DNA of 64,000 nucleotides from Micromonospora chokoriensis. GTDB taxonomy: Bacteria > Actinomycetota > Actinomycetes > Mycobacteriales > Micromonosporaceae. A model generated the notes under the pieces. The model saw nothing but the letters and a program-made list of their open reading frames with translations. It did not search any database and was not told where the DNA came from. Below are positions 23,138-26,717 of the stretch, one piece after another. Location of the stretch: contig NZ_LT607409.1 in the NCBI RefSeq assembly GCF_900091505.1, forward strand, positions 2,790,001 through 2,854,000, written 5' to 3'. A program made the translations under genes and the position numbers. The stretch's first letter is position 1, and each line of letters opens with the position of its first letter.

Positions 23138-24325
23138 TCACGGGGTGGTGGTGACGCTCTCCGGCCGGTTCGCGGTGATGCGGTGGCGGCGCACCGGGTA
23201 CAGCATCGGGTGGGAGATGGCCCAGGCCGCGCCCTTGCAGACGACCTCCTTGTAGCGGGCCGCCAGCCTCCCCGTGAGCAGGGACGGCTTGGCCCGGTCG
23301 TCGGCGGTCACGTACTGGATGATGCCGTCGCGGCGGCCGAGGCTGATGCACTGGTTGAAGTAGCGCAGCGGCGCCTTCGGGAACTTCGACCGGCCGGTCA
23401 GTCGCGCGGCGATGGCATCGGCGGCCTGCCACGCCATCGGGGTTCCCGAGGCGCAGGACATCCGCAGCGGCTTGCCGCCCGGTCCGGCGGCGAGGCCGGC
23501 GTCGCCGACCGCGTACACGTCGGGGTGGGAGACCGACCGCATCGTGTCGTCGACCACGATCTGCCCGTTCGCCGCGACCGTCAGGGTCGTGGCGGCGGCG
23601 ATCGGGTGAACGGCGAAGCCGGTCGTCCACACCGTCACCTCGGCCCGGATCTCCCGGCCGTCGCCGGTGACCACACCGGTCGCGTCGACCCGGGCGACGT
23701 CGGCGTGCTCGTGCACGGTGATGCCGAGCCGGCCACAGACGCCGTGCAGGTGCCGCTGCGCCCTGTCGTTGAGCCAGTCACCGAGGCCGCCCCGGGTCGC
23801 GAGCGCGACGTCGAGGTCCGGCCGGGCCTCGGCGATCTCGGTGACCGCTTCGAGGCCGGTGAGGCCTCCGCCGACGACGAGCACGGTCCCGCCGGCCGCG
23901 AGGTGGGCGAGGCGGTCACGCAACCGCAGCGCCGCCGGCCGGCCCGCGATGTCGTACGCGTGCTCGGCGACGCCGGGGACGCCGTGGTCGGCGGCGGTGC
24001 TGCCCAGGGCGTAGACGAGCGTGTCGTACGCGATCTCGTCGGTGCCGTGCTCGCCGGCCAGCGCGACGGTCCGGCTGTCGACGTCGACGGCGGTGACCCG
24101 CGCCTGTCGGACCGTGACGCCGGTGCCGGCGTAGACGTCGCGAAGCGGGCGGTGTGCGAGGTCCTGCCCGGTGGCGAGCTGGTGCATGCGGACCCGCTCG
24201 ACGAAGTCGGCGTCGGCGTTGACGACGGTGATCTCGGTGTCGTCGGGGTGCAGTCGCCGGGCGAGGCGTCCCGCGGCGATGGCGCCGCTGTAGCCGGCTC
24301 CGAGGACGACGATGCGGTGTCTCAT
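23138..24325 (-). CDS. NDH-2-like FAD-dependent oxidoreductase (ECF41 partner)
   Basis: 395 aa from the ATG at 24325. FAD-binding dinucleotide fold at the start (VVLGAGYSGAIAAGRLA), second nucleotide fold near 145-165 (VLVVGGGLTGLEA), and the FAD motif YAVGDAGLA near 275. The overall layout is that of type II NADH dehydrogenase/pyridine nucleotide-disulphide oxidoreductases. There is no C-terminal membrane helix, so association with the membrane is uncertain. It lies directly downstream of, and on the same strand as, an ECF41 sigma factor; ECF41 genes are typically paired with oxidoreductases, carboxymuconolactone decarboxylases or epimerases. Confidence 0.82.
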   Translation of the reverse strand: MRHRIVVLGAGYSGAIAAGRLARRLHPDDTEITVVNADADFVERVRMHQLATGQDLAHRPLRDVYAGTGVTVRQARVTAVDVDSRTVALAGEHGTDEIAYDTLVYALGSTAADHGVPGVAEHAYDIAGRPAALRLRDRLAHLAAGGTVLVVGGGLTGLEAVTEIAEARPDLDVALATRGGLGDWLNDRAQRHLHGVCGRLGITVHEHADVARVDATGVVTGDGREIRAEVTVWTTGFAVHPIAAATTLTVAANGQIVVDDTMRSVSHPDVYAVGDAGLAAGPGGKPLRMSCASGTPMAWQAADAIAARLTGRSKFPKAPLRYFNQCISLGRRDGIIQYVTADDRAKPSLLTGRLAARYKEVVCKGAAWAISHPMLYPVRRHRITANRPESVTTTP

Positions 24326-24408
24326 GGTGGCGCTCCTGTCTCGGCGGGTGGTCGCCTCCTGAACCGGGCAGCGACGCGTTTCCTGACAGGAGCCGCCTAT
24401 GAGCTGGG

Positions 24409-25350
24409 TCACCAGACGCGGAAGAGGGCTTCCCCGTGCGGGGCCGCGGCCCATTGCCGAGTGGCACGGGCGAGCTTGTCGGGGTTGACCTGGTTGTGGA
24501 TGGCCGCGACGCCGTCGGGCGTCACGTCCAGGAACATGACGCCGACGACCCGGTCGTCGATCACCACCACCACGGCCGGACCGCCGTTCGCGGCGGCGAT
24601 GTGCACCGTGGGACGGCCGCCGACCAGGTCCCGCTTGACGTCGGCGGGCTTGAAAAGGCCACGCAGGAACTTCGCCACCGCCACCGCCCCGGTGATCGAG
24701 GCCCGGGCCGGGATCTTGCCCCCGCCGTCGGCGGTGCTCCGGACGTCGTCGGTCAGCAGCTCGACCAGCCGCTGGATCTCGCCGTTGTTGGCCGCCGTCA
24801 GGAACTCCGCGATGATCTTCTGGGCGGTGGCGCGGTCGACCTCCGTACGGGCCCGCTCCGCGGCGACATGCTGCTTGGCCCGCCGGTAGATCTGCTGGCA
24901 GTTCGACTCGGTGCGGCCGATGATCTCGGCGATCTCACCGTGCGGGTAGCCGAAGGCCTCGCGCAACACGTACACCGCGCGCTCGCTGGGGGAGAGCCGC
25001 TCCAGCAGGGTGAGCACCGCCATCGAGACCGACTCGCGCTGCTCGGCGGTGTCGAGTGGGCCGAGCATCCGGTCGCCGGCGAGGACCGGCTCGGGCAGCC
25101 AACTGCCCACGTAGGTCTCGCGCCTGGCCCGCGCCGAGGTGAGCTGGTTGAGGCAGACGTTGGTGAGCACCTTCGTCAGCCATGCTGCGGGCGTCTCGAC
25201 GTGCCCCCGATCGGCGGCCTGCCAGCGCAGGAAGGTGTCCTGCACGGCGTCCTCGGCGTCGCTCGCCGAGCCCAGCAGGCGATAGGCGATCGCCTCCAGA
25301 CGAGCCCGGGAACGCTCGAACAGCTCGACCTCGTCCGGACTCAGCGGCAT
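24409..25350 (-). CDS. sigJ: ECF41-group sigma factor with SnoaL-like extension (SigJ type)
   Basis: 313 aa from the ATG at 25350. Sigma region 2 (EAIAYRLLGSASDAEDAVQD) and region 4 (LLERLSPSERAVYVLREAFG, GEIAEIIGRTESNCQQIYRR) are complete. Both ECF41 hallmarks are visible: WLPEP in the linker (near 90) and DGGGK in the C-terminal SnoaL-like domain (near 220). In this group the fused C-terminal domain tunes activity in place of a separate anti-sigma factor. The oxidoreductase gene downstream is the probable target. No ribosome binding site is seen, so the message may be leaderless. Confidence 0.88.
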   Translation of the reverse strand: MPLSPDEVELFERSRARLEAIAYRLLGSASDAEDAVQDTFLRWQAADRGHVETPAAWLTKVLTNVCLNQLTSARARRETYVGSWLPEPVLAGDRMLGPLDTAEQRESVSMAVLTLLERLSPSERAVYVLREAFGYPHGEIAEIIGRTESNCQQIYRRAKQHVAAERARTEVDRATAQKIIAEFLTAANNGEIQRLVELLTDDVRSTADGGGKIPARASITGAVAVAKFLRGLFKPADVKRDLVGGRPTVHIAAANGGPAVVVVIDDRVVGVMFLDVTPDGVAAIHNQVNPDKLARATRQWAAAPHGEALFRVW

Positions 25351-25694
25351 GGCTAGACAGTATCCAGATGACCGCGAGGCCGGTCCCTTCGAACCGGCCC
25401 GCCGTGCGAGCAACCAGACCGCGCCGGCGACAGCCGCCATGTTCGTGATCAAGAGGTTTGCGTCACCGAGGACTCCGTTCGTGACGCAAACCTCTTGATC
25501 ACCGCAGGCTTCGTCGTGGTTGCCGCCATCAGGCTGGTGTGCCAGTACGACTGGTTCACGGCCAAGCCACGCTCTGGGCACTCGACGCGGCCTGTCGTCG
25601 GGATACGTCATCACGACGCACGGCGTCGGGCGACACCCGCCGTGCGCCCATCGGGTGCGCTGATCAGCGCCGGAGGTCGCCTAGGATGGGGCCT
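25351..25694. other. divergent intergenic region holding a long inverted repeat
   Basis: 344 bases between the sigJ and Uma2 gene starts. No gene is seen. Its main content is the perfect inverted repeat at 25445-25502. TAGGAT seven bases before the Uma2 ATG may be a -10 element of a leaderless message. Confidence 0.5.
25445..25502. repeat. perfect 22-bp inverted repeat
   Basis: The arms at 25445-25466 and 25481-25502 are perfectly complementary over 22 bases (outer ends GTGATCAAGAGG, inner ends GCGTCAC) around a 14-base loop. The site is between divergent genes, so it is not an ordinary terminator for either. It could form a long hairpin or cruciform. Confidence 0.9.
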
Positions 25695-26249
25695 ATGGGC
25701 GCGGAGGCTGTCGGCATGCACATGCCCGCTGTTGTGACGCTCGACGACGTGGCGGCGATGAACGCTGCCGATTCGAATGGTCACCGCTACGAGACCAGCC
25801 CCGAGGGGGTTTTGTCGGTCATGCCCCCGCCCGATTCGGAACACGCCATGATCGCCAGTCGCCTCTTCGCCTGGTTGATCATGGCCGGGTGGCCCGCCGA
25901 GCAGGTGCTCCAGGCAGCCGGCGTCCGCATCTCCGGCCCGGACGGTGACGGCGGGCGCATTCCCGACCTGAGCGTCTGGCGTAAACCGCCGCTCCGCAGT
26001 GTCTGGGCTGCGGTCGCCGACGTCGTGCTCGTCGTGGAGATCGTCTCGCCGGGCTCGGAGGCGATGGACTCGGTGACCAAGGTCCGCGAGTACGCCTCGG
26101 CGGGGATTCCGCAGTACTGGGTCGTCGATCGGGACAGCGCGCAGACCGTCACCCTGCACCGCTTGAGCGGGAGTGGCGCGTACGAGGCGCAAGCGCGGAT
26201 GCCACTGGCCTGGCTGCTCCAGACCGTCCCCGCCGATCACCTCGACTGA
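25695..26249 (+). CDS. Uma2 family (DUF820) PD-(D/E)XK nuclease-like protein
   Basis: 184 aa from the ATG at 25695. The Uma2 restriction-endonuclease-like core is visible: PDSEHAMIASRLF, then IPDLSVW supplying the first acid near 95, and VVEIVSPGSEAMDSVTK with E and K near 116-128, followed by YASAGIPQYWVVD. Uma2 proteins are widespread in actinobacteria and cyanobacteria, often in many copies; their substrate is not established. It is a single gene, possibly leaderless. Confidence 0.85.
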   Translation: MGAEAVGMHMPAVVTLDDVAAMNAADSNGHRYETSPEGVLSVMPPPDSEHAMIASRLFAWLIMAGWPAEQVLQAAGVRISGPDGDGGRIPDLSVWRKPPLRSVWAAVADVVLVVEIVSPGSEAMDSVTKVREYASAGIPQYWVVDRDSAQTVTLHRLSGSGAYEAQARMPLAWLLQTVPADHLD

Positions 26250-26717
26250 GCGCCCGCACCGGGGCACTCGACGCGTCACGTGCCGGGTACTGCCAGCGAC
26301 CTTGTCACAAACCGGACAAGACGGTAAAGCCCCTGGTAGAGCACCCTTGGATCAGGTGGAGGTAGACGGGTGGCGGGCCACATCCTGATCCTCCGGCCCC
26401 GGCAGGGACACCATCGTCCGTACCGGCGCCGCCCTCACCCAGCCCGGCCTCGACGCCGAGGCGGTCACGGCACAGATGCCGTGCCGGTCACGTGCACGAC
26501 GGACCCGGGCTGCCACTGACACCCTGCGGGCGCCCGCAGCGGTGCCTCCGCCCACCGGGACAGGGACGTCCGCACCGCCGGTAGTCAGGCGACGCCTCCC
26601 ACCGGTCGTGCCTGCCGTCCCCGTGCCCCGCCGGCCTTTCGCACTGTGGACCCCGCCGGGTCCGGCGTCGCTCGACCGCGCGCCGACGCCTGGCGGCCGA
26701 GCCAGAAAGGGCCCGAC
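26250..26717. other. 468-base region with no recognised gene
   Basis: Between the Uma2 gene and the phage-like pair. One plus-strand stretch around 26400-26480 (GRDTIVRTGAALTQPGLDA in one frame) has a coding look but lacks a start and runs into low-complexity sequence, so it may be a remnant. TTGTCACA near 26304 followed by GGTAAA could be promoter elements. Nothing firmer is seen. Confidence 0.35.

Follow-up and report, generated by a model that had tools for sequence, protein, structure and literature searches.

A dispersed gene-end palindrome in Micromonospora: a probable bidirectional 3'-end hairpin whose families appear to turn over in place

The window analysed here, a stretch of 64,000 nucleotides (64 kb) of Micromonospora DNA, contains a perfect 22-bp inverted repeat that a sequence-only reading had pointed out and that proved exact. 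Its left arm (25445-25466, plus strand; 22 nt, with the core 20-mer TGATCAAGAGGTTTGCGTCA at 25446-25465) is followed by a loop of 14 nt (25467-25480; in the register of the family, 16 nt at 25466-25481) and by a right arm (25481-25502, minus strand) that is the left arm's perfect inverted copy, the two 22-nt arms being 100% complementary. The repeat lies, as had also been correctly stated, between divergent genes, both of them outside the element: an ECF-type sigma factor on the minus strand (24409-25350; Sigma70_r2 and Sigma70_r4_2, with SnoaL_2 under the cut-off) and a Uma2-family putative nuclease on the plus strand (25695-26249). The closest named relatives of the sigma factor belong to Micromonospora species, and the genus is assigned on that basis. 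The predicted RNA fold of the hairpin has an energy of -48.8 kcal/mol (z = -9.2), which none of 200 shuffles equalled; the arm has no second occurrence within the 64-kb window, and 100 dinucleotide shuffles gave no arm match. At the hairpin itself, Rfam covariance models gave no match at E up to 1, a terminator scan detected nothing, and no promoter-like match was detected. Over 23138-25350 of the minus strand an oxidoreductase-like reading frame comes after the sigma factor, a pairing typical of one ECF group; Micromonospora belongs to a group known for its natural products.

The stretch of approximately 280 bp around the hairpin (25367-25647) coincides with a synteny breakpoint, relatives aligning up to about 25366 on the sigma side and from 25648 on the Uma2 side. 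In the nearest relative found (G002), the aligned sequence breaks off at about 25366 and is picked up again at 26302, some 5.5 kb of other sequence intervening, and in genomes that have the Uma2 gene alignment begins at 25648 or later. The sigma and Uma2 genes are neighbours in G045 as well, where a membrane-protein-like reading frame lies between them and the element is missing; the idea of a gene remnant beneath the hairpin was abandoned, as comparison with this neighbouring locus of G045 gave nothing significant. The region preceding the sigma gene has no hairpin in the relatives' loci read, and the 11 Uma2 loci of relatives read have no element, the few arm-like words there being unpaired. 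We read the window copy as an exception, lodged in a rearranged divergent gap at a synteny breakpoint, which would explain its being one of only two divergent copies in its genome; it probably has little effect on either neighbour. The distances from the hairpin to the two gene starts (95 bp to sigma, about 190 bp to Uma2) would suit a regulatory site for two adjoining divergent promoters, and a protein-binding site serving both had indeed been proposed, but the missing promoter-like match, the absence of the hairpin from the relatives' sigma upstream regions and the 11 Uma2 loci, and the scarcity of divergent copies (2 of 46 classifiable, below baseline) together render this explanation very improbable.

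The repeat is one of many. When the window's own genome (G000; 6,897,719 bases) was searched with the 22-mer at up to 3 mismatches, 91 arm matches were obtained, 46 forward and 45 reverse, against 0 for a reversed-pattern control, and pairing of the arms resolved them into 48 elements. The earlier suggestion of a mobile hairpin repeat, with its advice to count copies of the arm, is borne out in the sense of a dispersed repeat, at 48 paired copies in this genome and with the arm in 53 of 61 sampled genomes of the genus. Absence from all other loci and from close relatives, which had been offered as grounds for refutation, applies to the exact window site, where relatives lack the hairpin, and not to the family, which is present at other loci and in relatives.

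Each element is built of a 20-nt arm, a loop variable in sequence and nearly fixed in length, and the inverted arm, with an arm-to-arm distance of 36 nt in 36 of 48 copies (32-37 nt overall). Inspection by eye placed all 91 matches within the 48 paired sites and revealed neither solitary arms nor arm pairs that are widely spaced or flank a longer element; nor was a target-site duplication evident by eye among the 48. Seven arm positions are identical in all 96 arms, and at five others no more than one or two arms deviate. G/C exchanges and T to C are the most frequent changes, mostly one-sided and not compensatory, and upon folding of the G000 elements a mean of 19 of 20 arm pairs form. The contrast between arms and loops is pronounced in five same-family comparisons at orthologous slots, in which 4 of 200 arm positions and 38 of 88 loop columns differ, although these five were found by a search allowing at most 4 mismatches per arm, which favours conserved arms. 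The bases at the arm feet are mostly GG or GT before and CC or AC after. The first outer base pair covaries (z = 3.4) and the outer flanks beyond it show no covariation; a longer stem was considered and dropped, since right flanks swapped among sites give almost the same number of outer pairs (19.3 vs 19.8). The chromosome of G000 also has a stretch of 1,605,167 bp (4.20-5.80 Mb) without any element; a gap as large as this arose in none of 20,000 randomisations of the 48 sites.

The position of the copies with respect to genes, as assigned with a simple codon-usage gene caller, is far from even. Intergenic copies number 46 of 48, and the full set comprises 24 convergent, 20 tandem and 2 divergent contexts, 1 copy inside a predicted gene and 1 unclassified, such that 44 of the 46 classifiable copies are convergent or tandem. 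These contexts (24/20/2) differ from a baseline of 51 convergent, 137 tandem and 60 divergent gaps (p = 2e-7; gaps of 40-700 bases from the window and larger stretches of G000 and G002, some of them fetched for holding elements), divergent copies being fewer than the baseline. Among tandem copies, 19 of 20 are nearer the 3' end of the upstream gene, and several copies supply the stop codon with their own TGA (distance -3). A stable hairpin directly after the stop codon is typical of the element, the window copy being an exception. The earlier statement that the repeat can be a terminator for neither flanking gene holds for the window, where both genes start away from it, but misleads as a guide to the family.

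The gene ends that carry an element have a skewed composition, the excess of C over G in the 15 nt past the stop codon being 0.39 in convergent gaps with the element (n = 20 gene ends) vs 0.09 without (n = 82), and 0.47 in tandem gaps with it (n = 4) vs 0.07 without. No U-tract accompanies the palindrome: 0 of 96 flanks have at least 4 T in the 8 nt that follow it, the maximum on either strand being 3 T. Runs rich in C or in G lie beside many copies and may form G-quadruplexes; at L334 (G002, the slot of G000 2308418) long GGGGGT-type runs adjoin the hairpin. Gaps that lack the element are themselves instructive, for among those of 40-300 bases strong inverted repeats (scores of at least 11) were present in 18 of the 30 between convergent genes and 29 of the 111 between tandem genes, compared with 1 of the 47 between divergent genes (convergent vs divergent, p = 8e-9). 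Convergent slots thus usually hold a hairpin, and the element is one filler among others.

What occupies such a slot can be followed into G002, whose flanks are mostly 86-96% identical (about 90%). Both flanks aligned at 27 of the 48 slots; the other 21 were not placed, mostly because the guessed regions missed them. A TGATCA-type hairpin with different arms was found at 22 of these 27, a hairpin with the same arms as in G000 at 1, and none at 4; the 22 have arms of the TGATCATGAAGTTATTGCC kind in 15 cases and other TGATCA-type palindromes, some degenerate, in 7. Twelve of the 27 slots had been fetched for a G002 arm match there and are biased (11 of the TGATCATGAAGTTATTGCC kind, 1 other), and the 15 slots that are left after dropping them hold 4 of the TGATCATGAAGTTATTGCC kind, 6 other TGATCA-type, 1 of the G000 kind and 4 none (10/1/4). 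The loops at swapped slots are dissimilar by eye between G000 and G002, so that replacement seems to have involved the entire element and not the arms alone. On these comparisons the slot appears to be conserved and the resident hairpin family to change between species. Copy number, location, structure and this turnover at the slots are direct observations.

More distant relatives give some indication of direction. Hairpins of the G000 kind, sometimes altered or stacked, are present at slots 3400818 and 6519762 (G008 and G012), 3071879 (G012) and 1928896 (G008), and at 1928896 the aligned left flank has a G002 element. The presence of the G000 kind in the farther G008 and G012 points to replacement on the G002 side, or to parallel gain, at slots 3071879, 6519762 and 1928896. 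Where relatives lack the family, the slot often has an ordinary GC-rich hairpin (G012 and G003 at 3363105; G004 at 2977335). Some slots of G008 and G012 contain two or three successive hairpins, and replacement may have come about by stacking and subsequent loss. A separate array in G012 (L222:1740-1899) consists of four direct arms at 30-31 nt spacing and then one inverted arm, with AAAC after each of the first three arms, each of which could fold as its own small hairpin.

A repeat of this kind might be a selfish palindrome, REP- or MITE-like, whose copies are useless and are spread by a putative enzyme, gene ends being simply harmless sites for it. The variation in copy number over the 61 genomes of the genus (0 to 97 arm matches per strand), the stacked hairpins in single slots of G008 and G012 with the tandem arm array in G012, and the placement of REPs elsewhere, also mostly between convergent or unidirectional genes according to the available part of PMC3733652, are all in keeping with such a process. 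The REP-associated transposase that the sequence-only reading had recommended looking for did not materialise where it would matter: in a profile search of the 61 genomes, PF01797 (Y1_Tnp) was found in 17, without link to copy number, and was absent from G000 and from four high-copy genomes with 54 to 97 arm matches per strand (G008, G012, G037 and G049). A REP transposase as the spreader is rejected on these grounds, and the missing Y1_Tnp weighs against selfish spread more generally, as do the pairing of all 91 G000 matches with none flanking a longer element (by eye), the want of a target-site duplication evident by eye, and the fact that slots are common to different species. Furthermore, strongly diverged loops between conserved arms would be odd for recent copying. 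We regard selfish spread as a tentative possibility.

Across genomes, an 18-mer search with 1 mismatch found the arm in 53 of the 61 genomes of the genus, at 0 to 97 matches per strand; among 296 genomes of the class, 4 had it, 3 of these within the genus. A looser palindrome pattern, with TGATCA at each foot and arms fixed in part, extended this to 69 of 200 family genomes, spread over 14 of 44 genera, and the control gave no match. The arms differ by genus, and the loop stretch GACACGCCG is common to several other genera and to the Micromonospora relative G002; these arms and this common stretch together establish a superfamily with lineage-typical arms. In two genomes of genus g125 (G401 and G421; L353, L354), arms of TGATCAAGGGATT or TGATCATGGTGTTGTC with recurrent loop motifs are further arm families. 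Within the genus, the second arm kind, that of G002, is present in 36 of 61 genomes, which excludes the notion of a dialect private to that species; several genomes carry both kinds, and both are abundant in several, for example G024, G034 and G056. Judged from these counts, the arm families vary in abundance between genomes and replace one another at slots. The literature searched yielded no recognisable description of the hairpin family, the Micromonospora papers being judged by their search entries.

These patterns bring up a further alternative, namely that a trans-acting DNA- or RNA-binding factor recognises the arm sequence, in which case the arms would mark operator-like sites or the species itself, comparably to DNA uptake dialects. 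Constraint on the arm sequence far exceeds that on the loop, and the arms vary among genera and species. In the G002 elements (L313-L352) a hypervariable stretch of 7-8 nt and fixed length lies beside GACACGCCG in nearly all copies; GACACGCCG is nearly unchanged in 28 of 30 elements read, the next 7-8 nt are highly variable, and the spacing is the same in 30 of 30, a fixed spacing that would also suit recognition. Uptake sequences, moreover, are known to form terminators in pairs and to have dialects (PMC1852404 and PMC3630211, in the parts accessible). Set against this are the small number of arms (about 96 per genome vs at least 1,000 for uptake signals), the absence of solitary arms in G000, and the coexistence of two abundant arm families in G024, G034 and G056, which speaks against one changing receptor. 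Such a recognition system is, in our estimation, quite unlikely.

The account that we consider reasonably likely is that the dispersed palindrome acts at 3' ends as a terminator-like hairpin working in both directions, with one family giving way to another at the same site. Copies lying directly after stop codons, mostly between convergent genes, would yield a long RNA hairpin from either transcribed strand; this hairpin, C-rich before and G-rich after on each strand, would help to stop or release the polymerase, possibly with Rho, and/or would shield the 3' end from exonucleases, and the slot would stay as the hairpin family that fills it changes among species. Termination or 3'-end protection is thus what we infer from the genomic record. 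The lack of a U-tract, the divergent position of the window copy itself and the conservation of the arms as sequence argue against a 3'-end role. The last of these is what the terminator account chiefly leaves unexplained: a plain terminator would have no need of a particular arm sequence, yet selection seems to have kept one, and something may therefore read it. It is on this apparent selection that a more speculative idea is founded, in which a trans-acting system of the Micromonosporaceae reads the arms and swaps gene-end hairpins in place (a 'homing' terminator). A new palindrome family would then take over existing slots genome-wide, and close species would keep their slots and exchange the hairpin; we hold this to be doubtful.

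Gene-end palindromic repeats are already known, and the interest here lies in finding a different family in the same slot of a close relative with flanks about 90% identical. The sharing of slots makes it possible to test spread without a recognisable transposase, and to distinguish parasites from working 3'-end signals; the catalogue of slots is ready for 3'-end mapping.

Among known systems, REPs tagged with GTAG or CGTC are numerous intergenic palindromes, mostly between convergent or unidirectional genes and likely to form RNA hairpins, as far as the accessible text of PMC3733652 goes, and the Micromonospora element resembles them as a many-copy intergenic palindrome with similar placement and a likely hairpin RNA. 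It differs from them in size, at 56-58 bp with arms of 20-22 nt and a loop of 14-16 nt, compared with 20-40 bp for REPs in that same text. It differs also in having no GTAG tag in the bases flanking the arms (CGTC occurs within the arm, not at the foot), in having no Y1 transposase (RAYT) in high-copy genomes, and in families that swap in place. As regards a MITE of an insertion sequence, G000 is devoid of widely spaced arm pairs, and duplications were judged by eye only. DNA uptake sequences (DUS) of Neisseriaceae and Pasteurellaceae occur as inverted pairs at terminators and in dialects, and the element is like them in its inverted pairs at gene ends and its lineage-specific variants of a common core (PMC1852404 and PMC3630211, as partially available); it is unlike them in having some 96 arms of 20 nt, always paired in G000, where DUS number thousands of about 9-12 nt according to those excerpts. 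From bidirectional intrinsic terminators the element is set apart by the lack of a U-tract on either strand and by an arm sequence conserved between copies. In M. tuberculosis, most terminator-like structures are without a plain U trail (PMC8355165, in the portion available), and a study in that paper's reference list has the mycobacterial polymerase, by its title, requiring a U-tract. The element nevertheless shares with bidirectional intrinsic terminators its position, its palindromic symmetry and the GC-rich hairpins that replace it at the same slots.
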